Part shown: piece by piece, positions 14,624 to 43,513 of the stretch
Position numbering within the stretch: position 1 is the first letter of the stretch
Layout of the letters: every line of letters starts with the position of its first letter
Source: Bacteroidota bacterium
Lineage (GTDB): Bacteria; Bacteroidota; Bacteroidia; UKL13-3
Reading direction: 5' to 3'
Assembly: GCA_040388375.1 (NCBI GenBank)
Contig: JAZKBU010000002.1
Coordinates: forward strand, 1-64,000
Length of the DNA: 64,000 nucleotides
Position numbers and translations under genes: made by a program
The notes under the pieces: model-generated
What the model was told of the DNA's origin: nothing
What the model saw: only the letters and a program-made list of their open reading frames with translations
Database searches by the model: none

Positions 14624-14697
14624 GGTTTCGTAGCTCAATTGAATAGAGCATCTCACTACGGATGAGAAGGTTCAAGGTTTGAATCCTTGCGAGACCA
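14624..14697 (+). tRNA. tRNA-Arg(ACG), integration target of the element
   Basis: A 74-nt cloverleaf. The acceptor GGTTTCG pairs with CGAGACC (one wobble), the anticodon stem is TCTCA/TGAGA with loop CTACGGA giving ACG, and the T-arm is CAAGG/CCTTG. The discriminator is A. The 3' part from base 14673 is the left copy of the element's direct repeat, so the gene stays complete after integration. Confidence 0.96.
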
Positions 14698-14700
14698 CAA
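14673..14700 (+). repeat. attL core (28-bp direct repeat)
   Basis: 28 bp identical to 43471-43498, starting CAAGGTTTGAATCC and ending GAGACCACAA. It forms the T-arm and 3' acceptor strand of tRNA-Arg. Identity stops on both sides (T versus G before it, A versus C after it). Confidence 0.92.
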
Positions 14701-14833: not shown

Positions 14834-14884
14834 GTGGCATTATAGTTGTTAACAGGTTTTTCACAACCTAAAAACAATTTTACC

Positions 14885-16039
14885 ATGGACTACCACCTCT
14901 ATCTATCGAAAAAGCGCACTAATGCACAAAAATTAACCCCTATTTACATTAAAATAACTATTGATAACAATATATATGAACGTTCAACGGGCGTATTTAT
15001 TGATATTGACCAATGGAATAAGATTTACAAACGAGTAAAGCCATCATATACAGGAGCTGAACAGTTAAACAAAAAACTTAATGATGTTGAAACCAAGCTG
15101 CAAGATTTAAAATCAAACAACGCCAATATTAGCGAGGTAGATAATAAGCTAAAGGAGAAAAAAACAAAGCCAAAGCAACCAGTAATTAAAATAGAAACTG
15201 TTATCAATGATTATTTAACAAGGCAATCGGAATTAATTGGCCTCAAAGCAGGTATTACAAAAAGCACTTACAGGGGCTATAAAGCTAAGGTTGATAACCT
15301 GCGAGAGTTTCTAAAAAACATTAAACGTGTTAATGCATTAATTACCGAACTTGATTATAAATTTGCCGACTTATACCGTACCTGGCTTTATTGCAAAGAG
15401 TTTAGTACCGGGCATGTAAACAAGTGCGTTAAATTTGTTAAAACGCTCGTGCGTTTCGCTCAATTTGAATACTCAATAAAAGCAACAAACATATTTTTAT
15501 TAACACTTAAGGAAGATGCACCTAAACCAATAGTATATTTAACAGGAACAGAATTAAAAGCAATACAAAAACGTGTCTATCACAATCCGCTACATCAAAA
15601 AACAGTTGATTTATTTTTACTTCAATGCTTTACCGGGATGGGCTACAGCGATGTAATAAAACTTAACGTTGAAAAATTTATCAGTTTTGATGGTAGGTGG
15701 TTTATTGGTTACCAAAGAGTAAAAACAAGTGTAAAAGCTTTAATACCTGTGTTACCAAAAGTAATAAGCATTTTAAATTGTTATGGGGGCAAAGCTCCAG
15801 TGCTATCAAATGAAGTTTACAACCGTGTTTTAAAAGAGATTGCAGCCCTTAATAACATAAACAAACGCCTTACCAGCCACGTAGGAAGAAAAACATTTGC
15901 ATGTATGCTTGTAAGCCGAGGCGCAAGCATGGAAACTACAACAAAAATGCTGGCCAAAACTAATGTAAGAGAAACAGAGAGAATTTATGCAGAAGTTCAA
16001 TTTGAAAGGGTTTTAAAAGAATTTCCTAAAATTGGGTAA
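14885..16039 (+). CDS. Tyrosine recombinase (Bacteroidota phage_int_SAM_5-type integrase)
   Basis: From the ATG at 14885 (MDYHLYLSKKRTN) the protein has 384 residues. It has an N-terminal arm-binding domain (1-75), a charged linker, a SAM-like core-binding domain (about 105-205) and a catalytic domain. The beta-strand Lys (RVKTSV), H-x-x-R (SHVGRKTF) and the Tyr nucleophile (ERIYAEV) are present. The usual first Arg in TGLR is absent (TGMGYSDV), as in CTnDOT-type integrases, and the usual LGHT box reads LAKT. It catalyses integration at tRNA-Arg and lies beside attL. It is the only plus-strand gene at this end and converges on the moron genes. Confidence 0.92.
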   Translation: MDYHLYLSKKRTNAQKLTPIYIKITIDNNIYERSTGVFIDIDQWNKIYKRVKPSYTGAEQLNKKLNDVETKLQDLKSNNANISEVDNKLKEKKTKPKQPVIKIETVINDYLTRQSELIGLKAGITKSTYRGYKAKVDNLREFLKNIKRVNALITELDYKFADLYRTWLYCKEFSTGHVNKCVKFVKTLVRFAQFEYSIKATNIFLLTLKEDAPKPIVYLTGTELKAIQKRVYHNPLHQKTVDLFLLQCFTGMGYSDVIKLNVEKFISFDGRWFIGYQRVKTSVKALIPVLPKVISILNCYGGKAPVLSNEVYNRVLKEIAALNNINKRLTSHVGRKTFACMLVSRGASMETTTKMLAKTNVRETERIYAEVQFERVLKEFPKIG

Positions 16040-17996: not shown

Positions 17997-19298
17997 TTAC
18001 CCGGCTTTATAAGCCAATATTTTAATTGCATTCCCGTCTTTATCTAATCCGGGCATGGTACAATTGCTAGTTAGTGCTTCCATCGTTACGTTATCCGCAA
18101 ACTGTATTTTTGCCTGAACGGTACCAAAAGCATCATCAGCAGGTGTTCTAACTTGAACAATTGCGCTGTTAGCTTTCATCATAACCGTTGGTGCTGTTAC
18201 AGAGCCTAGCAGTAAGTTTTTGGCAATATTTACATTTCCACTATTATCAACACGTAACCGGGAAGTAGCGTTTGTCGTTAAGTCAACACCGGAAGCGGTT
18301 AATACTATACCTGCACGTAAAGAACCTGCACCGCTTTGAATTAAGAAAGTATTGTTGGCTGCATTGGTAAATGAGGTATTACCGCCAATCAATGATAATA
18401 TGGTTGCAGAACCGCCCTCTGTTATAGTTAATACTCTGCCATTAACATCAACAGAAACAAAGTTGCTTCCATCTAATTTTTCAGCCCGAAAAGCATCACC
18501 AGCAGCAGAAGCTCTCACATGCAACGCAGCCAATGCAGCTACGTTGGCATTAATAACCAATTTGTCCGTAAATTTATTTTGTCCGCTAAATGTATTAGCT
18601 CCTGTCATGGCATTATTACCAGCAAGCGTTGCATAGGCACTTAATAAGCTGGCATCTGCCTTTAAAGCTAATTGAGTATTTACATAGCTAGTTGTAGCCC
18701 TGGTTGCAATTTGACCATCAACATAAACAATACTTGCTTTGTCGGCCAAAGCACCATCAACATAGGTAGTACTTGCTTTTGTACCTACCAGATTGGTTAA
18801 ATTGGTAACAATATTTTCATCATTATTTATTGCAGCTGCCAACTCTGCAATGCTATCTAATGCACCGGGAGGCGCACCGCCATATATTTCAGCTTTCAAT
18901 GCTGCAAGTGCAGCTGTCATTTGCCCGGTGGTACTATAACTAAGCAATGCAGCTGATATTTGCGAGTTTGTATAAATTTGTGTAGCATAGCCGGTTAAGG
19001 CGTTGCTAATGGATGTATCAACATTATCAATTGTGCTGTATGGCTGCAATGCTAAACCAATGGTATCAACCATTGATGTGTTGGTAACATAATTAACGCT
19101 TAAGTCGTCAGCAATAAAATTATTTAGGTAGCTGGTAAATCCGGTTTCAATTAAATCATTAACATCGTTTAGGTCTAATCCGTCACCGGTTTGTGGGCCA
19201 ACAACCCATTTAGAGCCATCCCAAACCATTACATCACCTACGTTGGCCGTTTTAGCCAGTAACCGTTTTTTATATTTACTTGGCAGTTCTTCGCACAT
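17997..19298 (-). CDS. Fibre/spike-like receptor-binding protein candidate
   Basis: The start is set at the ATG 19298 (MCEELPSKYKKRLLAKT) because an AAAGGAG ribosome binding site lies 6 nt upstream; this gives 433 residues. GDVMVWDGSKWVV near the N-terminus is typical of phage fibre and spike attachment regions. The middle holds short repeats of a YVxxxLAxKA type (about 165-240), as in trimeric fibres. A beta-rich C-terminal half follows, with TGANTFSGQNKFTDKLVI. It overlaps the 3' end of the polyvalent gene by 23 bp. It probably sits at the particle surface and binds the host. Confidence 0.7.
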   Translation of the reverse strand: MCEELPSKYKKRLLAKTANVGDVMVWDGSKWVVGPQTGDGLDLNDVNDLIETGFTSYLNNFIADDLSVNYVTNTSMVDTIGLALQPYSTIDNVDTSISNALTGYATQIYTNSQISAALLSYSTTGQMTAALAALKAEIYGGAPPGALDSIAELAAAINNDENIVTNLTNLVGTKASTTYVDGALADKASIVYVDGQIATRATTSYVNTQLALKADASLLSAYATLAGNNAMTGANTFSGQNKFTDKLVINANVAALAALHVRASAAGDAFRAEKLDGSNFVSVDVNGRVLTITEGGSATILSLIGGNTSFTNAANNTFLIQSGAGSLRAGIVLTASGVDLTTNATSRLRVDNSGNVNIAKNLLLGSVTAPTVMMKANSAIVQVRTPADDAFGTVQAKIQFADNVTMEALTSNCTMPGLDKDGNAIKILAYKAG

Positions 19299-22236
19299 TT
19301 TTAACTCCTTTCTTTTTAGAAACTTTTTTTGCAGTTTTATTTTTTGATCTAGCAACGCCACTTAAAGAGGTGTTTGCCGGTACTTTTTTTCGTTTAGATA
19401 TATTGAATTTGGGGCCGATTGCTCCAAATCTGTTTTTGCTTGAATAAGCATAATTATTTACAAACGTATCATCAACTTTGGCAACGTGTAAGTTAACGTA
19501 ACTATCAAACACAGGCTTATTACCTCCTCTTATCTCACCACTAGTGGTACGCTGAAACAAGCCTAAATATTTTTTTGTGGGATTTGATTTGAAAAGTTTT
19601 GTAAACTGAAACTGGTCATAGTCTTGTAGATTGGTGCAGCTGTCAATTAATGCAAAATCATAATCATTGGCTTCGTCACTTATTTTCTGCATTGTTGTTT
19701 CAGTGCTATCATCAATTGGAATCTTTTTTTGATTTTCCGGACTAATGTATTCAGTCTTTAGATACTCAATAAATGATGAAGTTTTAAGCATTTCCGTGCA
19801 ATAAATCTTAACCCTAAAACCTTTATTTGCCATTGCGTTGGCAATAATCCAGGCTAATTGTGTTTTACCTCCGCCCTGGTCACCATCAAGCGTAATAGCA
19901 CATTCGTGGTTTCCTAGGTCGCCAAGTAAATCACCGATGTCGCCATCCAAACGAAATGTACCACCACTTACGACCTGGTCAAGTGTTTGTACATTATCTG
20001 AAGCAACGCCTTTTTGAGTGTCGCTGGCCATGGTAGAAGCAGGTATTTTATCAATATATGTCTTAGCATTTGTAACTGCTAAATCAAATGTTGCAAACGG
20101 ACTGCCTTTTATTGCCCCAAAGTATTTACCATCTTTATAAATAGACCAACCAAAGGTATTTCTTAGTGTATTATGATGTGCGGTTATCTCATAGCCTTTA
20201 TATGAAACTTGCTTATTTGTTTTGCGTGCTAAAGGAGGCGTGTCCCTTAATTCAGTAACGCTATCATTGGCGTTGCTGCCAGGTTCTAAACCTGAAAGGT
20301 TAGTTTGTTTGTTTAAAATAAAGTCAGCTGCCTTTTGAGCATAATTGGCAGCTTTAAAAAAGTATGTTTTATCATTACCAATGAACTTAACCAATCCATT
20401 AGCCCAGCCTTTAGCATAAGCGGCTGAATGTTGAACGGTTTTGTGTAAGATACCGGCTTCACCACACAAATAACATGCTCCAAGCTCTGCAACCAATTCT
20501 TCCCAGCTGTATTGTTTATCGGCAAAACGCTGACTGTTTTTTCTAAAGCTATCAGTACCGCAACGTTTATCGTTTTTGGTACTATGTACAAGCTCATGAA
20601 AAAAGGTTGAATAATACCGGTCTTTAACCTTAAAGTTTTCTATTTTTGGCATTTTAACAATGTCCTGTGATGGAGAGTAAGAAGCTTCATTGCCACCAAA
20701 TTTAATTTTTGGTTTTTGGGGCATGTTGTTTATTATGGCCTCTGCACTTTCAATACGGTCAACTGGTTTGGCTGGCTTGTTATCAGGTTTATTATATTCT
20801 ATACCGTCCGTATCAGCCACATTGTAAACACCGTATAGTTTTAAAAAACTGATTAGTTTTTCTTCTGTTTCCGGCTCTTTAGATTCTTTACCTGGCTGAA
20901 CATCGGTTGTTATGAATTTACCGTAATACGTAACATAATAAGGCTTTGCACCTTTTATTAAAGTACCGCCTTTTTCCGTTATTTGTTTGCTGGTTAAAAA
21001 ATATGGGATGCTGTGGTTTCTTTCGTCCATTTCAGCTAATAAGCTCCAAAAATTAACACCTCTGTAAGCTCTTTTACTACCGAAATTTTGAGGCATTACG
21101 GCACTACCTTTGTCCATGCTCCAAGGTTGTTCCCAGGGAATAACACCTTTGTTAATTTGCTTTATAATGATTCGATTGATAACATCGTAAGGGTTCTTTG
21201 CTTTGCCCTCTATACCGGCTAAGTTATTACCCGTACTATCAATAATACCTAAAGATTTGGCTTCTGCTAAAGTGTATTGTTCAACACCACATAATAGGCC
21301 ATCTAAGCTAGTTGGTTTATCTTTTTTTTTTACTGTTGGCTTACCTAATTTACCAAGTGTAACTGATTTAACCTTTGGCGCTTTTACAACAGCATTCAGT
21401 TTGTTGAATAACTCTTTGTTTATTTGAAAATTTTTAATTTGAATAGTGTTACTGCCATCAAGCTTGAATATACCCAAACTTAGCTTTGCCTCCATTTCTT
21501 TGAGCAACTGGAAGTGTTGGTTTTTATTACCACGTTTAACCAGGGCGGTTATTTTATTGAGGTAATAATTTAATTGGCTTGTTTTAACAAATTTACCTTG
21601 TAAAGAATGAAGTCCTTTTATCAACGTTAATTCAGGAGTAATAACCGTTTTAATTCTTCCGGCTTTTGACTTTCTGACAACTGTTTTAGTAACGGTTTTA
21701 ACTACTTTTTTGATTTTAGTTTTAGGGCGTAATGCCTTTTTTATACCGGCTTCAAAAGCTTCATTGGCAGCTGCTCTTTCTTGTTCGCTATATTCTTCAG
21801 TATCGCTCATATTGGCGTTGTTTGGTTTTTCTTTGTATGCCTCGTTGTTAAAATCAGTAGCTTCATAATAGTATTCAGTTAATCCATTTGGGTAACCGCT
21901 TACCAAGAAATTAATATCGTCAATGATTTGGCTTTCGTCTTTGTTTTCATAGCCCTGTACATGGCCTTGCACTTCTAAGGCCAACTGGTCAACCTTTGTT
22001 CCGTTGGTTTTTATCCATCTTAAGTTAAAAGCTTGTGAACCTCTTTTGCGTAGGTTACTATCGAAAAACCTGTCAAAGCTTTCAGGGCTAAACTTCACAC
22101 CATCTAAATACAAAGCCAAATGGTCCAGGTTTGTAACCGGTACAAAATTTTTGCGTATTTCTTTGGCTTCTTTTGTTGCAAAACCAATTGTTCCGCCCTT
22201 ACCTAATGCTATATTATGTGGTGCTTTCCGTGTCAT
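19276..22236 (-). CDS. Polyvalent protein: ArdC-type domain, zincin metallopeptidase and RadA-like ATPase
   Basis: The protein has 986 residues. The N-terminal 140 residues resemble the short LPD-type domains of polyvalent proteins. A basic linker follows (165-305). An ArdC N-terminal-like ssDNA-binding domain spans about 345-450 (NPYDVINRIIIKQINKGVIPWEQPW). A zincin has HELVH at 547-551 and Glu-rich helix ELVAELGA at 580-587. A small beta domain covers 675-730. The C-terminal RecA/RadA-fold ATPase (about 765-945) has Walker A GDQGGGKTQ (785-793), Walker B FALIDSC (861-867) and the RadA-type KNRFG box (934-938). A Lys/Arg-rich tail closes it. Such proteins are known to be delivered with mobile DNA and counter host defences. 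The RadA-like part may act in recombination or packaging. The ATPase is not an obvious FtsK/A32 packaging type. Confidence 0.82.
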   Translation of the reverse strand: MTRKAPHNIALGKGGTIGFATKEAKEIRKNFVPVTNLDHLALYLDGVKFSPESFDRFFDSNLRKRGSQAFNLRWIKTNGTKVDQLALEVQGHVQGYENKDESQIIDDINFLVSGYPNGLTEYYYEATDFNNEAYKEKPNNANMSDTEEYSEQERAAANEAFEAGIKKALRPKTKIKKVVKTVTKTVVRKSKAGRIKTVITPELTLIKGLHSLQGKFVKTSQLNYYLNKITALVKRGNKNQHFQLLKEMEAKLSLGIFKLDGSNTIQIKNFQINKELFNKLNAVVKAPKVKSVTLGKLGKPTVKKKDKPTSLDGLLCGVEQYTLAEAKSLGIIDSTGNNLAGIEGKAKNPYDVINRIIIKQINKGVIPWEQPWSMDKGSAVMPQNFGSKRAYRGVNFWSLLAEMDERNHSIPYFLTSKQITEKGGTLIKGAKPYYVTYYGKFITTDVQPGKESKEPETEEKLISFLKLYGVYNVADTDGIEYNKPDNKPAKPVDRIESAEAIINNMPQKPKIKFGGNEASYSPSQDIVKMPKIENFKVKDRYYSTFFHELVHSTKNDKRCGTDSFRKNSQRFADKQYSWEELVAELGACYLCGEAGILHKTVQHSAAYAKGWANGLVKFIGNDKTYFFKAANYAQKAADFILNKQTNLSGLEPGSNANDSVTELRDTPPLARKTNKQVSYKGYEITAHHNTLRNTFGWSIYKDGKYFGAIKGSPFATFDLAVTNAKTYIDKIPASTMASDTQKGVASDNVQTLDQVVSGGTFRLDGDIGDLLGDLGNHECAITLDGDQGGGKTQLAWIIANAMANKGFRVKIYCTEMLKTSSFIEYLKTEYISPENQKKIPIDDSTETTMQKISDEANDYDFALIDSCTNLQDYDQFQFTKLFKSNPTKKYLGLFQRTTSGEIRGGNKPVFDSYVNLHVAKVDDTFVNNYAYSSKNRFGAIGPKFNISKRKKVPANTSLSGVARSKNKTAKKVSKKKGVKNVRRTAK

Positions 22237-23705: not shown

Positions 23706-23910
23706 TGTAGTAGTTATTATCATTATTTTTAGCATCAGCACTTTTAAGAAATCCAATAGCCGTTAAAACACCAACTATTAGCACTATGAATGCACCAGCC
23801 TGTTCAATATTTATTTTTCCTGTTAAAAACATTATCAATGCAGCTACTATGAACAGTAGTATTAAGTAGCCAATAATGTTAGTACGCCAGTTTCTTTTGC
23901 TTTTCATCAT
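23692..23910 (-). CDS. Putative holin
   Basis: The protein has 72 residues with a basic N-terminus, two transmembrane helices (about 12-31 and 37-55) and a polar Asn-rich tail. Size, topology and position, overlapping the muramidase end by 32 bp and the spanin-like start by 14 bp, fit a phage holin that permeabilises the inner membrane. Confidence 0.7.
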   Translation of the reverse strand: MMKSKRNWRTNIIGYLILLFIVAALIMFLTGKINIEQAGAFIVLIVGVLTAIGFLKSADAKNNDNNYYNGGK

Positions 23911-24565
23911 TGTTGGTATTGATTAAATATATTGTAAAAAAAAAAGCAGCAAGACCAACTACGCTTACACCGGTTTTAACTGCTACATCTTTAAAATCTA
24001 GTTTTTTTAACCTGGATAGCCAGCTTGTTAAAAATTGTGCTTGGTTTGCAACTGTAGCAGCTCTTTTTCTGTAATGAGCTTCCCTGGCTGCATTATACAA
24101 ATCGAAAAACTTTTTCGGGTCAACACTATTAAGGTTGTTTAGTGTTACAAGGCCAAAGGTTCCGGTTATTGGCATCTTTGAACCAAACCCAAAATCATTG
24201 GCCAGTATCTTTTGAACAAGCTTGGTTGCATCATTAGTGTCAACACCTAAAGCATGGTCATAAATAGTAGTAGCCACGCTTTCATTTTTAATACTTTCGG
24301 CTTTAACCGGTACATAAAAATTGGCAAAGTAAAAGTCCTTTATTAATACTTCTAAAGCAGCACTTGGTACTTTTTCATTGTTTTTAAGTGGGCGGTTTAC
24401 CTGTTTTTTATAGGCGTCAATGATTGCCCAGCCTTGCCATTTTGGCCACCAAACACGGGAAATACCCCTGTAGGTTTCACCGCCTGTATCTCCCGGAGTA
24501 TTGGCGTAGTTACCCTCATTGCCTTTTGCAAAGGTGGTTATTCGTTCAAAACGTGCCGTGCTCAT
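23879..24565 (-). CDS. GH108-type muramidase with C-terminal membrane anchor
   Basis: The protein has 228 residues. The N-terminal glycoside hydrolase 108 domain has the catalytic Glu17 in EGNYANTPGDTGGETYRGIS, then a helical region like the PG_binding_3 part (DATKLVQKILANDFG, FFDLYNAAREAHYRKRA, to about 180). A single transmembrane helix (about 198-216) and a short charged tail end the protein. The enzyme cleaves peptidoglycan glycan strands. The C-terminal anchor is unusual for a free endolysin and would suit a virion-membrane enzyme for entry, an exit enzyme tethered in the inner membrane, or both. The holin follows with overlap. Confidence 0.85.
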   Translation of the reverse strand: MSTARFERITTFAKGNEGNYANTPGDTGGETYRGISRVWWPKWQGWAIIDAYKKQVNRPLKNNEKVPSAALEVLIKDFYFANFYVPVKAESIKNESVATTIYDHALGVDTNDATKLVQKILANDFGFGSKMPITGTFGLVTLNNLNSVDPKKFFDLYNAAREAHYRKRAATVANQAQFLTSWLSRLKKLDFKDVAVKTGVSVVGLAAFFFTIYLINTNNDEKQKKLAY

Positions 24566-24566
24566 A

Positions 24567-25355
24567 TTATGCTACTCTTACTGTAAATCGTGGCTCGTAT
24601 TTGTCAACCTCCAGCGCTTTTAATGCCGGTATTGAAGATTTTAATATATCAGGTTCACGCACCCAGTATTCAGCTTTATTGCTTAAAAGGGCTATCTTAA
24701 ATAGTTGAACGCTAAATGGCTTGCCTCCATTAATGTAGGTATGCAATACAGAATCTAAGAAAACAACCGGTGCCAGGTTAGCACCTTTTGAAAACCGAAT
24801 ATCATTTTTGCCGGTTCCATAATTAAGGCGGTCTTTAAGGCCAAAAACGTCATTATTGGCGTTGTTGATTTTTATTTGAGTTACACCTTTTACCAATCCT
24901 TTAGGTGCCGCTACTGGTTGCTGCACACTCGTTTTGTTGTTATTTTGTTGGCGGGCTTTAACATTCAGGTTAATTAAAAACTGTTCAAATTGGGATGGAA
25001 ATAAAATGCCCCGTATATCTTCTTCCAAATTGTCGCCTTTATTCAGCAGTGAATAAGCATCAACCACTTTTTTCCAGTCGGTTACTGTTTTGGCTAGTTC
25101 CAATATTTTATCACGTTGAGGAAATCCAAACCACTTGTCACCTATAAGAGCCTTAAACTGGCTTGCAAGTCGTGTGTTATCATCACCCTGAATATTACCG
25201 GCTGCATCTTGGGCGCTTTTTTCTTGTTTATTTTTGGTATAAAAATAATAACTACCGCCTGCTACTGCTATAATAACCGCAAATAACAACGGGCTAAAGC
25301 CTCCGCTTTTGGTATTTGCTCCGGGTGTTTGCAATACAATTGTTTTTGTTTCCAT
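24567..25355 (-). CDS. Membrane-anchored late protein, unknown function
   Basis: The protein has 262 residues. The N-terminus is 20 polar residues, then one transmembrane helix (about 21-39, PLLFAVIIAVAGGSYYFYT). A soluble domain follows with a helical repeat region (KALIGDKWFGFPQRDKILELAKTVTDWKKVVDAYSLL) and a C-terminal beta-rich part ending in RFTVRVA. It precedes the muramidase by 1 bp. Its place in the virion block suggests a structural membrane protein. No named family is claimed. Confidence 0.6.
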   Translation of the reverse strand: METKTIVLQTPGANTKSGGFSPLLFAVIIAVAGGSYYFYTKNKQEKSAQDAAGNIQGDDNTRLASQFKALIGDKWFGFPQRDKILELAKTVTDWKKVVDAYSLLNKGDNLEEDIRGILFPSQFEQFLINLNVKARQQNNNKTSVQQPVAAPKGLVKGVTQIKINNANNDVFGLKDRLNYGTGKNDIRFSKGANLAPVVFLDSVLHTYINGGKPFSVQLFKIALLSNKAEYWVREPDILKSSIPALKALEVDKYEPRFTVRVA

Positions 25356-27257: not shown

Positions 27258-27983
27258 TTAGTTATTCTCAATAACCAAAGTGTAACCGATGTAGGTAAAC
27301 TCTGTAGCATAAGCCACAGCATTAGCACCGGCAGCGGTATTAGGAAGCGTAACGCCATTTGGCAAGTAAAGAATAGGTTTTAAAGCCTTTCCTTTTTTTA
27401 CCAATATTAAGCCGTTAGGAACCGGTATTGAATCAGCTGCACTGGCTTCGATGCTGTCTTTACGGTTATTGGACTGGAAGTAGTTTTTATAACCAAAACT
27501 GAATTGACGGTTTTCGTTAATTTTTAACTCGTATTCAGCACTAGTAACTTCACTTGGTGTTACTAAAGTTTGGGCAGCTCCTGGAGCTTGTAACAAATTG
27601 GTATATTCTGCTACTTTTAATTTTGTAGTGCTACGTAAATCAGTTACACCTGGTGTAGTGTTTGGCATTGGGATTACTGCAACTCTTGAACGAGTGGCAA
27701 CCATGACAAAATCATCCGCTAACTTCATACCTTTTTCAAGGTTGGTTACACCGTATTCTTTCTCTACGTTAACATCATACGCTCCGACACCAGTATCGGC
27801 ACCTGTATTGGCCAAATATGCTCTATGATACTTTTCATCATATATAGCGTTTAATTGGCCTGATTTTGCCGCAGCTCTTTGTTCTGAAGTTAAAATTCCA
27901 CTTCCACCGGCTGCTAAACTTTTGTTGTCGGCTGCTATAATTCTAGCTAATACTTCCGACCCTGATAAAATTGCTGTGTTCAT
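27258..27983 (-). CDS. Candidate major capsid protein
   Basis: The protein has 241 residues, is soluble and beta-rich, with many Ala, Gly and Asn. Its features are a helical N-terminus (residues 1-40), YDVNVEKEYGVTNLEKGMKLADD and VMVATRSRVAVIPMP in the centre, and a beta-rich end TEFTYIGYTLVIENN. The size fits major capsid proteins of small tail-less phages (PM2 P2 has about 270 residues). Supporting context: it has the largest spacers around it in the late block (66 bp before, 37 bp plus a terminator after), as expected for the most expressed virion gene. No sequence family is claimed. A structure prediction would decide. Confidence 0.5.
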   Translation of the reverse strand: MNTAILSGSEVLARIIAADNKSLAAGGSGILTSEQRAAAKSGQLNAIYDEKYHRAYLANTGADTGVGAYDVNVEKEYGVTNLEKGMKLADDFVMVATRSRVAVIPMPNTTPGVTDLRSTTKLKVAEYTNLLQAPGAAQTLVTPSEVTSAEYELKINENRQFSFGYKNYFQSNNRKDSIEASAADSIPVPNGLILVKKGKALKPILYLPNGVTLPNTAAGANAVAYATEFTYIGYTLVIENN

Positions 27984-28651: not shown

Positions 28652-30919
28652 TTAAATTTCGAATTTTGCTATTGTTTTGCCTTTTGATGGCTTGTTTAGG
28701 CCCTGTAAATTGGCTGGCTTTTGCGGCTTATTGCCGGAGCTTGCAATTGCCAATCCACCTAAAACTAATACAGCTACAGCTGCAACCACTATCATTGTGG
28801 TGTTGTTCTCTTTGGAGTAGCTTACCGTTGGAACTGGCGTTGCTGGGTTATTATTTGGCGCTGGTGTAACTGTACCCGGTGGGTAAGTTGTTCCAGGGCC
28901 AACTTGTGGCGTGTTGTTAGATGGTGGTAAAAATGGTGCAGTTATTTTTTTTACATCATCAACTCCATCGCTTACCTTTTTAACCGTGTCGGTTACTTTA
29001 GTAATGGCATCGGTTACTTTTACAATTATTGGTGTAGCAGTGGCTAGTAATGTAGCAGCTGTAATAGCTTCACCCAAACTACCCATAGACATAACCGCTG
29101 ATTTTGTAATACTTGGAATTGCCTGTTTTACTGTTGTTGGCCCAGCATTTACAGCCGGTTTCATTTGGGTTTGTTTTGTTCCGGTAGGTTCTTCGCCAAC
29201 GATTTTTTTAACCGTTACTTTAGCACCTCCGGCAGGATTAACAACTGTCTTAACAATAACTTCTTTCATTACCCACGCTGGCATTAACTCCAGTTTTGGC
29301 GTTGGGTTGTGGTCTTTGTTATATTGGGTTGCATCTGCATTGTACTTGTTAACCCTTGCAGCTGCATTTTCTTGGCTTACCACTTTTAATAAAGCTTCTG
29401 TTGGTTTAACCGGTGGCGGTGGTGGTGCAGATATGGTTTCAACTGCTGGCGAAGCCGGTGCATCAGTGGTGGTTACTTTATTTCTGCCACTACCGGTGTT
29501 GATGGATGCAAGCAGGTCGCCCCAATCGCCACCAACAAAAGTACCTGTCCAAACATCTTTAATTTTATTGTCTTCGCCACGGTCACGCATTCCCTGCATG
29601 TCAGATGCCCAACCACGGAAATTAATGGCTACAAGGCCACGAAAAGCACTACGGGCTGCAATCATTATGGGGTTATACTTTTGCAGCATGCCTACTGTCC
29701 ATACAGCTGCATTTTTCAAGCCTTCGCCAATAGCACGGCCAGCATCGCCAATTACGCTGATGCTTTTATCAACAGCATCAACGGTGAAACCGTAAGCATT
29801 TTTGGCTATATCACCAACGCTTTTAGCCAAATCACCAGCTGTATCACCTAACCAATCGGTAAAATCAGAACCAAACCAACCTAAACTTCCTAACCTAACA
29901 CTGTTGTTAGTAGGCCAGCTTTGAGTAATATCAACGTAACCGGAAATGCCACTTAAAGCCGCATTTCTCGCACGTACATTCATAGCTTGTGTATTTTCAA
30001 TTTTACCTTTGTACTTAGCTAAAACCGCTTTAAACGATACAGGATTATTCCAACCGGCAAGCAATTCTTTTATAAAGTTTTTATACGTTTCTACATTGTA
30101 AATGCTGGCAATAGTTTCAGGTTGCGTTTCTGCTACCTTTAAGTTTTCAACTAGCATTAAACGTATTGGCTCAATAACCACCCTGGTCATTGCGTTTAAT
30201 TCAGCTGCGTTATACGGGCGTATTTGCTTTTTAGGCTTACCTCCGGTTTGTGGGCTTAATTTAACAGGTGGGCTGTCAACCTTGCGAACTGGTGGAGCGC
30301 AGTTTGTGCAAGGTTGGTTTATGACAGCCGATTTTGTTACTATGGGAGGAACAAATGTTGTGGATGGTTGGTTTGATACTGGTTGTGTATCAACTTTAGT
30401 TAAATAGTTTGAGGGAACAAATACGGTTCCTATAGGTTTTTTTACCAATATACCTGAAACTACTTTTCCCTTGTCAGTTGTGCTTTCAATACGGCCCGTT
30501 ATAATTTCACCGTTCTTTACAACAGCTTTACCAGTGGTTTTATCGCCTAAATCAAGCCCGGTATATTTGTATGTTAACACAGGTTGAATTGTTGTAACCG
30601 GTTGGTTAACCGGTTTAGCTACTGGTGTAACCACTACAGCCGATTTTGTAACCGCTGGCATAACCACCGCTGTAGTTGTTTTAGCCGGTACTATCATTGG
30701 AAGTACAGGAGCTTGACCAACTAACTTTTTAGCAGCATTGGTAATAACATTATTTAACACCGTTTGAGCTGGCATTACTGGTTGGCCTTTTTGTATCTGT
30801 ACACTAACATTGTTAACAGCTGCCAATACTTCGCCTAATAATCCATCAAGTGGAATATGCATACTATTGTTTGCGGTTAAAGGCTCAATGCCATTTAAAT
30901 ATATTGTATTTCCGGCCAT
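28652..30919 (-). CDS. Large multidomain late protein with C-terminal transmembrane helix
   Basis: The protein has 755 residues. An N-terminal segment (1-60) leads into Pro/Val/Thr-rich low-complexity linkers in which the pentamer TKSAV recurs (near 90, 195 and 605). A beta domain covers about 115-180, a helical domain about 240-340, and Gly/Ala-rich amphipathic helices about 360-450. C-terminal linkers and one transmembrane helix (about 711-732, TTMIVVAAVAVLVLGGLAI) are followed by a basic tail. It is probably a large structural or membrane-associated protein for DNA delivery or virion organisation. The role is not known. Confidence 0.6.
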   Translation of the reverse strand: MAGNTIYLNGIEPLTANNSMHIPLDGLLGEVLAAVNNVSVQIQKGQPVMPAQTVLNNVITNAAKKLVGQAPVLPMIVPAKTTTAVVMPAVTKSAVVVTPVAKPVNQPVTTIQPVLTYKYTGLDLGDKTTGKAVVKNGEIITGRIESTTDKGKVVSGILVKKPIGTVFVPSNYLTKVDTQPVSNQPSTTFVPPIVTKSAVINQPCTNCAPPVRKVDSPPVKLSPQTGGKPKKQIRPYNAAELNAMTRVVIEPIRLMLVENLKVAETQPETIASIYNVETYKNFIKELLAGWNNPVSFKAVLAKYKGKIENTQAMNVRARNAALSGISGYVDITQSWPTNNSVRLGSLGWFGSDFTDWLGDTAGDLAKSVGDIAKNAYGFTVDAVDKSISVIGDAGRAIGEGLKNAAVWTVGMLQKYNPIMIAARSAFRGLVAINFRGWASDMQGMRDRGEDNKIKDVWTGTFVGGDWGDLLASINTGSGRNKVTTTDAPASPAVETISAPPPPPVKPTEALLKVVSQENAAARVNKYNADATQYNKDHNPTPKLELMPAWVMKEVIVKTVVNPAGGAKVTVKKIVGEEPTGTKQTQMKPAVNAGPTTVKQAIPSITKSAVMSMGSLGEAITAATLLATATPIIVKVTDAITKVTDTVKKVSDGVDDVKKITAPFLPPSNNTPQVGPGTTYPPGTVTPAPNNNPATPVPTVSYSKENNTTMIVVAAVAVLVLGGLAIASSGNKPQKPANLQGLNKPSKGKTIAKFEI

Positions 30920-30920
30920 G

Positions 30921-32039
30921 TTATGGAATTTGTTTAATTAATTGATTGGTTAGACTAAAAGGCTCTGTATTGTATTGGTGTAAACAGGCATCAATAACCA
31001 GGTAGCCTTTACGGTCTGATTTAGATGGTACGATTACGTAAATATGGCAAAGGGCTTTATCAGGGCGGTTACTTACCAGTTTGATAGCACAAGGAATGCC
31101 CATATTTTTAAGGATGGAAACGACAAACTTGCTAAAGCAATCGCAGTCTATACCCTCTTTTCTTTTGTCCCAGCTCGAAGCCGGAGAGTTCAATATTTCA
31201 TCACGCAAAGCCAATGGCTTCATGTGGTCATCATAATTGTATTGTATATGGTCATGTAAGAACCTATACACATTGTAAACGCTTTGTTCAACTGTTGGAG
31301 CTTTCCAGCGTTCGGCAATTTTTTTTGTTTGATATAATTCGCCTGGTACCTGTGAAACTATTATATCAGCTGTTTTGGTTGGCTCTGTACCTATTGCTAC
31401 CATTTGACTGGTACCTGATGGCTTTGGGAAATACTGGTCAAACTCTTTACCGTCTTTAATTTGGCGGTGGTGTGCAGAAAGGCTGTCAATACCTAAATCG
31501 CCAACCTTGCCCAAAATTGTCTGAAGCAACGCCTTTAATGGCGCAAACATGCTTTTTGCATTAATCAGGAACTCTTGTTGAGGTATTTCAATCCCGGCAG
31601 CTTCAAAACGTACTATAGCTTTTAAATTGCTATCAAGCGCACCGGTAAATAATTGGTAAACGGTATAGGCGGTTAAGTAACTTGCTGTTAACGGTACACT
31701 GTTTATATTGGTTATTGTGTTTTTTAAGATGGTTACACTGGTAACCGGCTTAACCATGTAAAACATATCATTCCAAACCGGACTTGTAACCGAAGCTGAA
31801 TTGTATTGCAGTGTTACATAAATATTGCCAATTCTTATATCAAAGGTGCTTTGATTTATAATTTGAACAGGAAAGTTTACATTGATACCATTTTGTAAAT
31901 TGAAGTCATTGGGAATACCTGGAACGACTTTGAATTTACCTAGTAAATTTTGTGCTTTGGAGGCTGTGGAAGCTAAAAGAAAGGCAGCTGTGGCAATGCC
32001 TCCTATAATTAAATAATTTCTTCCTGAATTTTGGCTCAT
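30921..32039 (-). CDS. Membrane-anchored transglutaminase-like (papain-fold) protein
   Basis: The protein has 372 residues. A transmembrane helix at 9-27 (YLIIGGIATAAFLLAST) is followed by a beta domain (about 40-160) of adhesin-like type. The C-terminal transglutaminase-like domain (about 235-365) has a complete triad: Cys in EGIDCDC (299/301), His332 in CHIYV and Asp350 in VIDAC. Such domains are proteases or crosslinking enzymes. It is the first gene of the late block. Its start codon sits at the foot of a nested hairpin, and an array of phased repeats lies upstream. A role in processing virion proteins or the cell wall is possible. Confidence 0.75.
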   Translation of the reverse strand: MSQNSGRNYLIIGGIATAAFLLASTASKAQNLLGKFKVVPGIPNDFNLQNGINVNFPVQIINQSTFDIRIGNIYVTLQYNSASVTSPVWNDMFYMVKPVTSVTILKNTITNINSVPLTASYLTAYTVYQLFTGALDSNLKAIVRFEAAGIEIPQQEFLINAKSMFAPLKALLQTILGKVGDLGIDSLSAHHRQIKDGKEFDQYFPKPSGTSQMVAIGTEPTKTADIIVSQVPGELYQTKKIAERWKAPTVEQSVYNVYRFLHDHIQYNYDDHMKPLALRDEILNSPASSWDKRKEGIDCDCFSKFVVSILKNMGIPCAIKLVSNRPDKALCHIYVIVPSKSDRKGYLVIDACLHQYNTEPFSLTNQLIKQIP

Positions 32040-34360: not shown

Positions 34361-35290
34361 TTAATCATGGCAACCGCCACTTTCACAACTTTTTAAACCT
34401 TGATTTATCATTTCAGGAATCCAATATTTAGAATTGGCAATGATTTCAGCGTAAGTAATACGACTATCCAACCAAGTACCTTTACCTAATGTTTCCTTTA
34501 AAGAAAACCAGTTCATCTTTGCAGGAGCAACTTGGCTCATAATGCTTAGCGTTTCGGGCTTCTTATGAAAACAGCCAATACAATTACTAATTGGTGGAAA
34601 ATATATTTGATGGCTATTTTGGTTAAATAAATTAGGTGTTAAATATCCATTGTTAGCCCAATAGTCTTTGACTATTTTTTCTGTAATTCCATTTTTTACT
34701 AATGGAAATTGACAAAATCTCCAATTAAAATCACTATGTTTTTGTTGTCTTTTACCTTGTAAACTGCATGAAGTTGCTATTTTAAAATTACTTGGGTCTG
34801 AATTATTAAAAAAGCGTTCCATTCTATCAAACTCATCAAATCTAAAACCTATACGCATATTTACTTTTTCGCCTACGTTGTTAAACCACCACTTAAATAT
34901 TGGAACTAACTTCATTTCATCAGTGCAATACCTCCTTGCCCAACTTGGCAAGCGATTAGGAGTGCCGCCATGAGTATTACTACTGGTTAGTATATTATCA
35001 AAGCTCTTACCTCTTACCCAAATTATTTCACGGCCTAAGAGTTGCTCCAAATCCATCATTGCTAAAAGTGTTTCGTCTAATTCGGCAGTGGCTATAAAAT
35101 CGCCATATTCGGGTATATACTTAGCAAGCTTTTTGTTTGCATAATCTATTAGAGCCTTGTCCGTTGGCGCACATGTTTTATCGTCAATACATACTACACT
35201 AAATACTTCGTAGTCGGCTGGATAATGAACTGCTATGTAAGCGCTAGTTTTTCCACCACTTATACTGTTTACTGTTTTCACTTTGCTCAT
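34361..35290 (-). CDS. PP-loop ATP pyrophosphatase, PAPS-reductase-like
   Basis: The protein has 309 residues. The PP-loop motif SGGKTSAY is at 11-18, the pattern of PAPS reductase/DndC/ThiI-like adenylating enzymes. A Cys pair CIGCF lies near 240 and the protein ends in CESGGCHD, possible metal or sulfur-relay cysteines. Phage members of this family are annotated as PAPS reductases, but their substrate is unknown and may be a nucleobase. It stands between a methyltransferase fusion and an ASCH gene. No dndB, D or E gene lies near it, so a full phosphorothioation system is not supported. Confidence 0.8.
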   Translation of the reverse strand: MSKVKTVNSISGGKTSAYIAVHYPADYEVFSVVCIDDKTCAPTDKALIDYANKKLAKYIPEYGDFIATAELDETLLAMMDLEQLLGREIIWVRGKSFDNILTSSNTHGGTPNRLPSWARRYCTDEMKLVPIFKWWFNNVGEKVNMRIGFRFDEFDRMERFFNNSDPSNFKIATSCSLQGKRQQKHSDFNWRFCQFPLVKNGITEKIVKDYWANNGYLTPNLFNQNSHQIYFPPISNCIGCFHKKPETLSIMSQVAPAKMNWFSLKETLGKGTWLDSRITYAEIIANSKYWIPEMINQGLKSCESGGCHD

Positions 35291-35298
35291 AGCTTACT

Positions 35299-37938
35299 TT
35301 AAAAGTTGTTTAAAATTGAATCAATAACCATATTTCGCCTAAGCTCCGGCATGTCTTTTAATTGGGCAATGGTGCGGTCAATTAATTTTTTGTTGTTCCA
35401 TCGCTCCCGGTAATCAGCACCATAAAATTTATAATCGTGCAGCTTGGTAGGTACTGGATAATTTATGTACATCATACATTCTTTTCTGCCAGCTCTTGTT
35501 TGGTCGTTAAATGGATGCTTAGTAAAACCGTTGTTTAAAAGTATGTTATCGTACAGCTCACATTCATAGTGAGTAATCATGGTGTAAACCGGTAACTTTC
35601 TAACTTTATTAAGTAGCCTTTCGTGTTGCTCCAAAGTTTTAAATTCGTGCGGGTATAGGTCAATAGTGCTTTGCCTGGTTTCTTCTAAATAGGGAGGGTC
35701 TAAAAACAAAAATGTTTTACCAAATTCAACCGGGTTTATCCAATGTAAATTTTCAAGAAAGTTGCCATTAACCAGGTGCATTTTTGTTTCTTGTTTATTC
35801 CACTTATCAATAACGGTTTTATCCATATCTATACCAACCATTCGTTTAGCCGGTTTGATGTGTTTAGATAAAGCGCAATGCCCTAAAAAACCGCTTACAA
35901 TAGTTTCAACCGGTGGTACATGGTTTATAAGAAATTGAAATACACCGGAGGCAAAAATGCCTCCGGTGTAAGTATCATTGATACTTGGCTCTTTGGCTTG
36001 TTTTGGTATCTCCTTTTTGGGCGTTGTTGCAGTGGGTTGTTTCATTGCATTGATACGCTCTATTTGTGCATCAATTTTACTTTCATTTTTAACCGGCTGC
36101 GCTATACCTGGCAGCATGTCCATTTTAGGCGTTGTTACCGGAGTCTTTACAATTTTGGTTTGTGGTATGTTATCAGCCAATATTTCATTTAAGATTCTTA
36201 ATACATCACCTGGCTTTAATTCAAAATCTCCTTTATTGGGTGTATTTTTTTTACTTGCCCAAGAGCTAACGTTAGTGAAATATTTCACTTTTAACCCTTT
36301 TAACTCAACAAATCCATTTCTTACAGATGAACCGCCACCATCTCCAAAATCAATTACTTCTTTTAGTTCAGCAATTGTTTTGAAGCCATTAGTGACAAAG
36401 TTATTAAGTTCATATCGGCTCCCTCTAACTAAACTAAAAACCAATTCATGCTCAATTGAACCAATATATTTATGTGTTAAAACAATTGGCTTTTTATAGC
36501 CTTGTAGCATATCTACATAACTAATTGTATTTGCATAATAAAATTCACTTTGGCAGCAGTATATTTTTAATTCATTGGGGCTTTTAAAAACAAAATATGC
36601 AGTATCATAACTTCCATTTCCTGTGAATTTTTCACCACATCCATCACAGCAAAATGGCATTTTGTTAACGGGGAAATTTGTAAAACAATGAAAAGGATAA
36701 AACAAATGGTGTTCAGTATTAGTAAATAATTCTTTATGGTCAACCCATTCTTCAGCTGTAGCCTTGTTAACTATGTTTATTTTTTCAGCGAATGAAACTG
36801 GTAAAGCTTGTTCATTTTCAATAACCGGTTCAACCTTGGTCAGCACTTCCATTTTTGGCGTTGCTGAAGCCTGATATGTAAATGTGCTGTGTTTGGTTTT
36901 ATCTAAATAAAACTGTTCGTTGCCAACACCAATAGGCATTTCAGAATAGGTATGCTTACCATCTGCATTTGATAACTCTTGCTTATACCTGTAGAATTTA
37001 TCAGCGCAGTTGGTGCCTACAAAAACTAAATAGTCGGCATCAAAAAAACCATTATAGTTATTGTTTTTAGGCAATAACTTTTTGTTGCACACACAACATA
37101 CTATCTGACCAACCAACGATTCATTTGGCGTTGCTTCAGTTTCGTGAGCTTGTAAAATATCTTTTTGGGTTTCTTCTTCAATGCTGTTTGGTAGCAAATA
37201 CCCTGCTAACATTAAACCTTTTTCAAACTGCTGTAAATTTTCTTCCACATCTGCCAACGGTTCAACTGGCGTTGCTTCAGCTACTAAGCTAAAAGTGGTT
37301 ATATAAATAGTATTGCCATCACTATCATATTTATAAAATTCTACTCCGCTAGAAGTTCTACTAAAAAAATAAATTTTATTAACCTCCTTGTAACCGGGTA
37401 TTTTCTTTTTATCAATAAAGCTTTGCAGTTTGGCTTGAAAATCATCTAGGTTATCAAGATGTAAAAGCGTTTCAGCTTTTAACATTATATTTTTTATTAA
37501 GGCGGTTTTAGGAGTTGTTATTTTGCTGTATTCAATTTTTGGCGTTGCTGGATCACTTTCGGTATCATTTTGCACGCTTTTACCCTTTTTTTGTACGTTT
37601 CCGTTAACTTCCGGTACACCTTTAGCGTTTATTAGCTTAAAATTTGTAGGGTCAATTGTTTTAGCTCCTTTATTTATTTTAGATATAATAAGCCACGCGT
37701 TAAATGGCGGTACAATTTTTTCGTTGAACAGATTGGCAAAAACAGATTTATTCTTTTTTTCATAATGTGCTTTATAACAATATTCATTAGCACTTTTGTA
37801 GTGTACAAATACACGTACATCATTATCAAAAAAGCCGTTTAATAAATTGCCGTTGGCTTCTAATTTGGCTTGTTCGCCACACTCGTTACACCAAATTCCA
37901 AAATCGGTATTAACTGCTTTATTTGTGTTCTTTGTCAT
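35299..37938 (-). CDS. Zinc-knuckle repeats fused to a D12-class N6-adenine DNA methyltransferase
   Basis: The protein has 879 residues. Three related modules carry a CxxC pair followed by a GFFD-x-D-x-VFV or similar strand: near residue 14 (WCNECGEQ), near 285 (CCVCNKK) and near 425 (CCDGCGEKF). Short linkers contain a recurring TPK-(M/K/I)-(E/D) peptide. The C-terminal 200 residues form a Dam-like methyltransferase with motif I-like VSGFLGHCALSKH and the catalytic DPPY at 747-750. It would methylate adenine in DNA, and the modules may read DNA or RNA. Motif I departs from the usual FxGxG, so activity is likely but not certain. Confidence 0.78.
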   Translation of the reverse strand: MTKNTNKAVNTDFGIWCNECGEQAKLEANGNLLNGFFDNDVRVFVHYKSANEYCYKAHYEKKNKSVFANLFNEKIVPPFNAWLIISKINKGAKTIDPTNFKLINAKGVPEVNGNVQKKGKSVQNDTESDPATPKIEYSKITTPKTALIKNIMLKAETLLHLDNLDDFQAKLQSFIDKKKIPGYKEVNKIYFFSRTSSGVEFYKYDSDGNTIYITTFSLVAEATPVEPLADVEENLQQFEKGLMLAGYLLPNSIEEETQKDILQAHETEATPNESLVGQIVCCVCNKKLLPKNNNYNGFFDADYLVFVGTNCADKFYRYKQELSNADGKHTYSEMPIGVGNEQFYLDKTKHSTFTYQASATPKMEVLTKVEPVIENEQALPVSFAEKINIVNKATAEEWVDHKELFTNTEHHLFYPFHCFTNFPVNKMPFCCDGCGEKFTGNGSYDTAYFVFKSPNELKIYCCQSEFYYANTISYVDMLQGYKKPIVLTHKYIGSIEHELVFSLVRGSRYELNNFVTNGFKTIAELKEVIDFGDGGGSSVRNGFVELKGLKVKYFTNVSSWASKKNTPNKGDFELKPGDVLRILNEILADNIPQTKIVKTPVTTPKMDMLPGIAQPVKNESKIDAQIERINAMKQPTATTPKKEIPKQAKEPSINDTYTGGIFASGVFQFLINHVPPVETIVSGFLGHCALSKHIKPAKRMVGIDMDKTVIDKWNKQETKMHLVNGNFLENLHWINPVEFGKTFLFLDPPYLEETRQSTIDLYPHEFKTLEQHERLLNKVRKLPVYTMITHYECELYDNILLNNGFTKHPFNDQTRAGRKECMMYINYPVPTKLHDYKFYGADYRERWNNKKLIDRTIAQLKDMPELRRNMVIDSILNNF

Positions 37939-42822: not shown

Positions 42823-42920
42823 AAAATACACTAAAATGCGTTTTATAAATATATAAAATTGATTTACAACGAATTAATTTAATACTATATATATCTAAAA
42901 TACATTTTAATGCGTTTTTA
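42823..42920. promoter_or_regulatory. Operator region of the repressor with two related repeats
   Basis: Two direct repeats of the form AAAATACA-N3/4-AAATGCGTTTT-like lie at 42823-42845 and 42897-42920 (TAATGCGTTTTTA in the second), 74 bp apart. They fill the AT-rich gap between the divergent repressor and the first early gene, so they are probable repressor operators. Confidence 0.55.
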
Positions 42921-42975
42921 TTTGCTTTATTTGTTTTTAAAAAGCATTTTTGTTGCAAATAATCTATCAAAAACT

Positions 42976-43446
42976 ATGGATGCGAAACAAAAACGTTTAA
43001 ATCTGGTAATTTTGATGCTTAATTTAAGCAGGAATGAAATTGCCGAAAAAACTAACTACACAGCCAGTCAGATTTCACGAATTACAACAGGTCAGGAGCC
43101 AACAAATAAATTTATTAATGTGTTTTGTTTAGCATTTCCTAAAGCTAATAAAAAATACATCTTAGATAATGATGGAGAGCCTTTAATTGGTGTGGATTGT
43201 TCTGATATTGGCTTTAAAAGTATTGGCAAGGAAAAACAAGAAATTAGTTTTTTAAAGCAACAAATAGCCAAAATGGACACTCAAATAACATATTTACAAA
43301 ATATGTTAGAAAAAGCTTTGAGCCTACAACCGGATTTAGCGGGAAAGCTTAATTACCCAATTGCAAAGTATGGTAAACAGGACAGTAATTACACACTGAA
43401 CCTATTTACACAATTAGGGACTACACAAGGGGCTTTTAAAAATTAA
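42976..43446 (+). CDS. XRE-like repressor of the element
   Basis: The start is set at 42976 (MDAKQKRLNLVILMLN), giving 156 residues, because the in-frame ATG at 42910 lies inside the operator repeat. A helix-turn-helix covers about 15-40 (LSRNEIAEKTNYTASQISRITTGQ), followed by a coiled coil (about 90-115, EKQEISFLKQQIAKMDTQITYLQNML) for oligomerisation. It is divergent from the early genes and lies beside attR, the usual place for a lysogeny repressor. No RecA-type autocleavage Ala-Gly/Ser-Lys pattern is visible. Confidence 0.8.
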   Translation: MDAKQKRLNLVILMLNLSRNEIAEKTNYTASQISRITTGQEPTNKFINVFCLAFPKANKKYILDNDGEPLIGVDCSDIGFKSIGKEKQEISFLKQQIAKMDTQITYLQNMLEKALSLQPDLAGKLNYPIAKYGKQDSNYTLNLFTQLGTTQGAFKN

Positions 43447-43470: not shown

Positions 43471-43498
43471 GCAAGGTTTGAATCCTTGCGAGACCACA
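43471..43498 (+). repeat. attR core (28-bp direct repeat)
   Basis: 28 bp identical to 14673-14700, the T-arm and 3' acceptor strand of tRNA-Arg. Upstream of it is element DNA (the end of the repressor gene), so it is a tRNA fragment and not a gene. Confidence 0.92.
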
Positions 43499-43513
43499 AC
43501 AGCTAAAAAAGAT

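Follow-up and report, generated by a model that had tools for sequence, protein, structure and literature searches.

The window analyzed here, a 64,000-nt stretch of a Bacteroidota genome (assembly GCA_040388375.1, contig JAZKBU010000002.1, positions 1 to 64,000), contains an intact provirus of 28.8 kb (14673-43499). One gene of its late region encodes a protein of 986 amino acids (aa) in which an ArdC module, including a zincin metallopeptidase, is fused to a RadA-like ATPase domain. In the reading that we consider probable, this protein ties an anti-restriction cargo to the virion ATPase of a phage that is temperate, lacks a tail, probably contains a membrane and is of the type of Salisaeta icosahedral phage 1 (SSIP-1). 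Related genomes and loci are cited by our labels (G and L numbers).

Domains and fold of the fusion protein

The open reading frame (ORF) at 19276..22236 on the minus strand encodes 986 aa from an ATG start. The initial annotation had described one polypeptide with an ArdC-type domain, a metallopeptidase with HELVH and a RecA/RadA ATPase with Walker A, Walker B and KNRFG, and Pfam, PDB and motif comparisons agreed with this description. In Pfam, ArdcN (PF08401) was found at residues 349-471 (E 5.9e-24; 85.1 bits, cut-off 22.6) and MPTase-PolyVal (PF18818) at residues 497-631 (E 1.9e-29, far over the cut-off). The ArdC chains 6sna and 6i89 of the PDB aligned with residues 351-648 (E ~1e-33). 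The zincin motif HELVH (547-551) is followed by the glutamate motif ELVAE (580-584), and the protein thus has both hallmarks of ArdC, an ArdC-N domain and a zincin with HExxH plus a downstream glutamate. It is also polyvalent, with several unrelated domains, MPTase among them, in one protein of a mobile element. The ATPase motifs are Walker A (GDQGGGKT, 785-792), Walker B (FALIDS, 861-866) and KNRFG (934-938). From the N-terminus, the parts of the gene are:

19276..22236, minus strand: complete fusion of ArdC, zincin and RadA-like ATPase, 986 aa (Pfam, PDB, fold model)
21883..22146, minus strand: N-terminal domain NT115 (residues 31-118), shared with G032 and with G047, where the domain order differs
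21418..21633, minus strand: LIK domain (residues 202-273), found in 41 of the loci compared by an iterated hidden Markov model (HMM)
20293..21198, minus strand: ArdC module (residues 347-648), single-stranded DNA (ssDNA)-binding ArdC-N plus zincin HELVH..E (Pfam, PDB match, motifs)
19390..19950, minus strand: RadA-like ATPase domain of RecA fold (residues 763-949; motifs, AlphaFold2 model, PDB fold matches)
19279..19365, minus strand: basic C-terminal tail after LSGVA, with 12 K/R in the last 30 residues (sequence)

No Pfam family exceeded its cut-off in the C-terminal domain. An AlphaFold2 model of this domain, built on an alignment with 30 relatives, had a predicted local distance difference test score (pLDDT) of 82. 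RadA ranked first among its PDB matches in Foldseek and in VIA-align (Z 19.1 and 18.9), the latter ranking being limited to the P-loop families present in the VIA list; RecA, FlaH, KaiC and DnaB were only approximately 1 Z lower. The K, N and R of KNRFG were invariant in all 10 relatives compared, followed mostly by F/Y-G. On the evidence of the model, we class the domain as a RadA-like ATPase. The absence of both flanking parts of RadA rules out that it is a RadA orthologue: residues 690-785 contain no cysteine cluster like the N-terminal C4 zinc ribbon, and only 37 residues follow the ATPase domain, leaving no C-terminal Lon-protease-like domain. Matches to Pfam AAA_24 (PF13479), which we take to be the family holding phage Sak4-type proteins, were found at E up to 1 in 8 of 10 relatives (best 7e-8) and were not among the Pfam matches of the domain in the window. 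In the comparison with PRD1-type P9/A32 ATPases, the best folds were RadA, RecA and KaiC, and a weak Pox_A32 match occurred in 2 of 10 relatives.

An element of the same kind, with the ArdC-ATPase fusion, is present in G032 (contig DITN01000023, L078), and further fusions were found in G226, G326 and Nonlabens (L109). Recurrence in other genomes shows that the fusion is not an assembly artefact.

Sites of the form L[SD]G[LV] at 20284-20298, 21292-21306 and 19351-19365 separate LIK, ArdC, ATPase and tail. The motif L[SN]G[LIV] was enriched in late proteins (48 observed, 13 expected from shuffles) as compared with other proteins (58 and 34), redundant loci included. From sequence, motifs of this type are possible cleavage sites of a maturation protease, either the transglutaminase-fold (TG) protein described below or the zincin.

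The provirus and its relation to SSIP-1

The ends of the provirus are an exact 28-bp direct repeat of the end of a tRNA-Arg gene. Between the integrase at the left end and a repressor-like gene at the right end, nearly all genes lie on the minus strand, as an early block followed by a late block. The main features, in order of position, are:

14673..14700, plus strand: attL, 28-bp repeat over the 3′ end of tRNA-Arg (14624-14698, by ARAGORN), exact copy of 43472-43499
14846..16039, plus strand: provirus tyrosine integrase (Pfam Phage_integrase 1.9e-11, Arm-DNA-bind_5 3e-9)
17997..19361, minus strand: spike/fibre-like protein of the gene immediately downstream of the ArdC-ATPase fusion (tail-protein match in PHROG, 2.7e-7 over 41 residues)
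23879..24565, minus strand: GH108 lysozyme with a C-terminal transmembrane (TM) segment, homologous to SSIP-1 gp31 (Pfam 1.7e-12; TM scan; profile against gp31 3e-13)
24567..25355, minus strand: TM262, conserved lineage protein (N-terminal hydrophobic stretch by eye, not called TM by the scan)
27258..27983, minus strand: candidate major capsid protein, found at a conserved position throughout the lineage (31 members, iterated HMM)
28652..30919, minus strand: P755 membrane protein, part of one polypeptide with the TG protein in relatives
30921..32039, minus strand: TG protein, homologous to the structural protein gp34 of SSIP-1 (profile A7 against gp34 6.6e-18)
34361..35290, minus strand: PAPS reductase-like gene (PHROG 1e-20; SSIP-1 gp25 has the same annotation)
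42910..43446, plus strand: repressor-like protein inside the right end (named by inspection), conserved in G032
43472..43499, plus strand: attR, second exact copy of the 28-bp repeat

The late block holds the TG protein, membrane proteins, the capsid candidate, the GH108 lysozyme, the ArdC-ATPase fusion and the spike-like gene. Several proteins of the late region have TM segments in the scan, consistent with a membrane-containing particle. The placement of the fusion in a viral late operon, just upstream of a fibre gene, was therefore correctly recognized in the initial annotation: its neighbors are lysozyme, TM, capsid-candidate and spike-like genes, and the next gene is the one with the PHROG tail-protein matches. 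By eye, genes in the equivalent place in G032 and G047 start with a short stretch similar to one in this spike-like gene; its real start is probably an internal ATG near 19298.

The sole Walker A motif of the provirus, among six-frame ORFs of at least 60 aa, is that of the ATPase domain of the 986-aa protein, and the same was observed in G139a and G139d. Neither VirB4/VirD4 ATPases nor a relaxase had a Pfam match in the provirus. No terminase or portal was found among the Pfam and PHROG matches of its large ORFs; the motif scan by itself would miss a terminase whose Walker A has diverged. With one Walker A protein in 28.8 kb, hence no VirB4/VirD4, and with no terminase or portal match, we ruled out both a conjugative element and a tailed phage.

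The capsid candidate was named by position and conservation, since no fold match was obtained. Its structure model (A4) had a pLDDT of 37; its profile gave only a fibre match at 0.69 against the PDB, a probability of 0.5% against the major capsid protein of FLiP, nothing in PHROGs, and no SSIP-1 protein (best 0.07-0.6).

The link to SSIP-1 was found through the TG protein of G160, which matched SSIP-1 (NC_017983). Against the SSIP-1 proteins examined, lineage profiles matched gp34 (TG, 6.6e-18), gp43 (DarB, 1.9e-17), the endolysin gp31 (GH108, 3e-13) and gp40 (ATPase, 1.9e-9). The SSIP-1 record annotates gp34, gp40 (a RadA-like ATPase) and gp43 (a giant DNA methyltransferase) as structural proteins. 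PMC4124505 cites gp40 as a predicted packaging ATPase, and PMC6356626 describes SSIP-1 as icosahedral and membrane-containing, with capsid proteins of two types and, in 2019, hardly any sequence in common with GenBank. Judged by these protein similarities, the provirus belongs with the SSIP-1 lineage.

Two further observations concern the genes of the provirus. The TG protein and P755, encoded by two genes in the window (28652-32039), form one polyprotein of 829-925 aa in G047 and G032, with an LSGLGG/LNGLG-like sequence near the junction. In the early block, a protein of 879 aa (35299-37938) has a C-terminal D12 adenine methylase (Pfam 5.6e-5) and cysteine-rich N-terminal regions; its matches in G032 and G047 were short only.

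Relatives, exchange of payloads and shared tails

The TG (gp34 homologue) profile was positive in 47 of 395 genomes of the host's class. In 41 of 64 TG loci, drawn from the survey list at E below about 1e-20, a family ATPase was found 9-22 kb downstream on the same strand; none was found on the other side (0/64), and many of the unpaired loci run off their contigs. Tailless SSIP-1-like proviruses may therefore be common in Bacteroidota. Another provirus of the lineage, the second in the host genome, lies on G000 contig C1 (approximately 373000-389000; L144) and has TG, TM193, capsid candidate, TM262, GH108, LIK-ATPase (837 aa) and integrase genes, its ATPase belonging to another subclade. Pattern scans of viral contigs with the protein of the window and with capsid and TG proteins gave no match; one contig was found with ATPase set A3 (L113) and one with the G160 capsid candidate (L165).

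The LIK domain is fused or adjacent to the ATPase in nearly all relatives, and beside LIK-ATPase there is usually an enzyme of anti-restriction type, the family of which varies between viruses. This slot holds ArdC, a Strawberry-notch helicase with methyltransferase (DarB-like), an SNF2 helicase, or a C5 methylase with or without a D12 methylase; in G106 the DarB-like protein is accompanied by RadC, an N4/N6 methylase and MutS-I. The ATPase varies much less than these surrounding payloads, and Aquimarina, Fulvivirga, Marivirga and Nafulsella are among those that have it without ArdC. The ArdC-ATPase fusion requires four changes on the ATPase tree. In G047, ArdC carries LIK and the ATPase is a separate gene of another subclade, which rules out a simple split of the fusion and indicates replacement or independent pairing.

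ArdC was always found within a polypeptide with LIK or the ATPase (the window, G032, G226, G326, L109, G047 and, to the contig end, G142), and a C-terminal tag was never found on ArdC modules. Most non-ArdC slot enzymes end in a common C-terminal tag, basic or acidic depending on the virus. An HMM of 13 positions, trained on the tails of D12/C5 methylases only, was applied to the C-terminal 40 residues of proteins with 150 aa or more. All top matches down to E 0.25 were payload-slot proteins, including DarB-like, SNF2 and C5-only proteins on which it had not been trained; the first non-payload protein appeared at E 0.95, and the best N-terminal control at 0.55. In proviruses fetched later, an acidic tag (EAEALALELEL) has the same hydrophobic pattern at the same position. 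The HMM of basic tails missed the acidic ones, which were seen by eye in new loci before a second HMM was built, so that this part is partly post hoc. Tails of like charge occur together within one virus, acidic in G421 (127 and 1223 aa) and G276b (352 and 1538 aa), basic in L113 (177 and 1195 aa) and G172 (159 and 1543 aa). The force of the tag argument comes from tags common to unrelated families and from tails that match within one virus; the counts are not independent, many loci being close relatives. The tag is absent from SSIP-1 gp43 and from some truncated or early methylases. From these sequences, two ways of holding a payload on the same core are visible, fusion and tag.

Tails of reversed charge with the same hydrophobic pattern (EAEALALELEL, KAKALKVKLKM) were seen in different viruses, for example L146 (2888-9280) and L100 (4210-9147), as if a docking partner had changed charge too.

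Other observations were made among the relatives. A related ATPase clade has an N-terminal cysteine-rich, zinc-ribbon-like region (G068:C65:17342-18631, G163:C25:4216-5541, G360:C128:5312-6751, G077:C19:122220-123686); serine-recombinase-like genes lie near it in G068 and G360 and no virus genes are nearby, as in another kind of mobile element. In G047, approximately 10 plus-strand genes between the late and early blocks (G047:C51:83992-92221), including kinase-like and phosphatase-like proteins by inspection, are a possible defence cassette. Two metagenome-assembled genomes (MAGs), L082 (labelled Rickettsiales) and L102 (labelled Thalassovita), carry this Bacteroidota element in the Fulvivirga form (L079, L104/L105), probably through MAG contamination.

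Proposed function and comparison with known systems

In the reading that we favor, the RadA-like ATPase and LIK would form a core, a virion-associated, low-copy NTPase most likely driving genome packaging, and ArdC would be a swappable payload, inserted between them, that enters the particle during assembly along with motor and genome. Upon infection, ArdC would bind single-stranded or partly single-stranded viral DNA and block host restriction; the zincin may free the payload by cutting, or may cut a host protein. The sole Walker A of the provirus is as expected if the RadA-like domain is the packaging NTPase. Together with the structural annotation of SSIP-1 gp40 and gp43, it lends support, by analogy, to the suggestion of the initial annotation that the particle contains the protein or that packaging involves it. 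ArdC of R388 binds ssDNA and partly single-stranded DNA, counters HsdRMS with its protease dispensable, and works when made in the recipient (PMC7213743). By analogy, virion delivery would be another route to the recipient-cell site where R388 ArdC acts. For the 986-aa protein we infer presence in the virion, packaging activity, delivery and protection; its domains and fold, the provirus borders, the relation to SSIP-1, the sole Walker A, the order of the genes, the exchange of payloads and their shared tags are observed.

Several points weigh against this interpretation. In the ATPase tree, gp40 groups with housekeeping RadA on a long branch outside the family, and with the deepened ATPase profile it scored 57.6 bits, no higher than host RadA (52-60 bits). 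It is at most a possible orthologue of the ATPase in the window; the ATPase link to SSIP-1 is therefore one of superfamily and role, and gp34 and gp43 provide the firmer links. Four fetched TG loci with room for the gene (G276a, G120, G327 and G139e) had no recognizable ATPase in 20 kb, and most of them also carry capsid-candidate genes beside TG. ATPases of RadA type are not established as packaging motors, and the capsid protein of the provirus has no fold identification. R388 ArdC functions when produced by the recipient itself, and its protease is not required. Finally, the support for this virus comes from genes rather than from proteomics or expression.

In the main rival reading, the ATPase is itself injected as payload and serves, beside ArdC, as a RadA-like branch-migration enzyme in circularization, integration or repair of the incoming genome, not as a packaging motor. 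Iyer et al. (2017) propose a post-entry role for SMS/RadA domains in polyvalent proteins (PMC5512222). The closest fold and the KNRFG motif of the ATPase are those of RadA, a DNA branch-migration helicase, and the fusion to ArdC and the neighboring RadC and MutS-I payloads suit DNA handling after entry. However, these viruses would then have no P-loop packaging enzyme left, the ATPase is far more constant than the payloads around it, and the predicted packaging ATPase of SSIP-1 is in the same superfamily; we regard this rival as rather unlikely. An early, non-virion protein for anti-restriction or recombination (Sak4-like, or a replication helicase), in the late region by chance, would account for the at least weak AAA_24 matches of 8 of 10 relatives. 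It is improbable, because in the proviruses examined the gene is embedded among those for lysozyme, TM proteins, capsid candidate and spike, and its SSIP-1 counterparts carry structural annotations. Assignment to a conjugative element or plasmid, made by Iyer et al. for SMS/RadA polyvalent proteins, would suit the observation that ArdC-N is most frequent in conjugative elements (PMC5512222). That assignment is already contradicted by the single Walker A protein, which leaves no VirB4 or VirD4, and by the lysozyme, spike, many TM proteins and SSIP-1 structural homologues, and we give it almost no weight.

We propose more tentatively that SSIP-1-like temperate viruses of Bacteroidota are widespread and largely unrecognized, and that they combine a RadA-type motor with interchangeable anti-restriction enzymes, loaded by fusion to the motor or LIK (ArdC) or by a short C-terminal amphipathic tag, basic (KAKAIKLKL) or acidic (EAEALALELEL), that matches within each virus. 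A role of the ATPase as packaging motor would make it a motor of RadA/RecA type outside the FtsK/HerA and terminase classes. If fusion or a common tail tag serves to load the payloads, the choice by a virus of the proteins that accompany its DNA becomes testable. The relatives with other DNA-protecting enzymes in the same place suggest that these viruses deliver a shield together with the DNA.

Among known systems, SSIP-1 shares with the provirus a TG-fold structural protein, a RadA-like ATPase and a giant methyltransferase annotated as structural, a GH108-type endolysin and a PAPS reductase. It differs in gene order, in having the ATPase and the payload as separate genes, in the absence of ArdC, in the untagged gp43, and in capsid proteins not recognizably related to the provirus candidate. 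The ArdC of the IncW plasmids R388 and pSa (6sna, 6i89) corresponds as a whole to residues 351-648, with HExxH and the glutamate motif, but is a free protein of approximately 300 aa expressed in the recipient, whereas here it is a module of a viral late protein. RadA/Sms has the same RecA core and KNRFG and is the best fold match; the domain in the window differs by lacking the zinc ribbon and the Lon-like domain. DarA, DarB and DdrB of phage P1 are large anti-restriction proteins of the virion, and DarB-like helicase/methyltransferases fill the slot in relatives of the provirus. P1, however, is tailed, and no fusion to a RadA-like ATPase is known there. The comparison with P1 rests in part on PMC5512222. 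The Bacteroidetes polyvalent proteins of Iyer et al. (2017) include ArdC-N, MPTase and SMS/RadA ATPase among their domains, the SMS/RadA ATPase being described in Bacteroidetes, so that SMS/RadA domains in such proteins are already known (PMC5512222). Those proteins were assigned mainly to conjugative elements and plasmids and to a post-entry role; here they belong to SSIP-1-type proviruses in which the core, the ATPase, stays constant and its partner domain changes. Within the open PubMed Central literature, an SSIP-1-like provirus lineage across Bacteroidota with a constant ATPase core, an exchangeable slot and common tags appears to be new.

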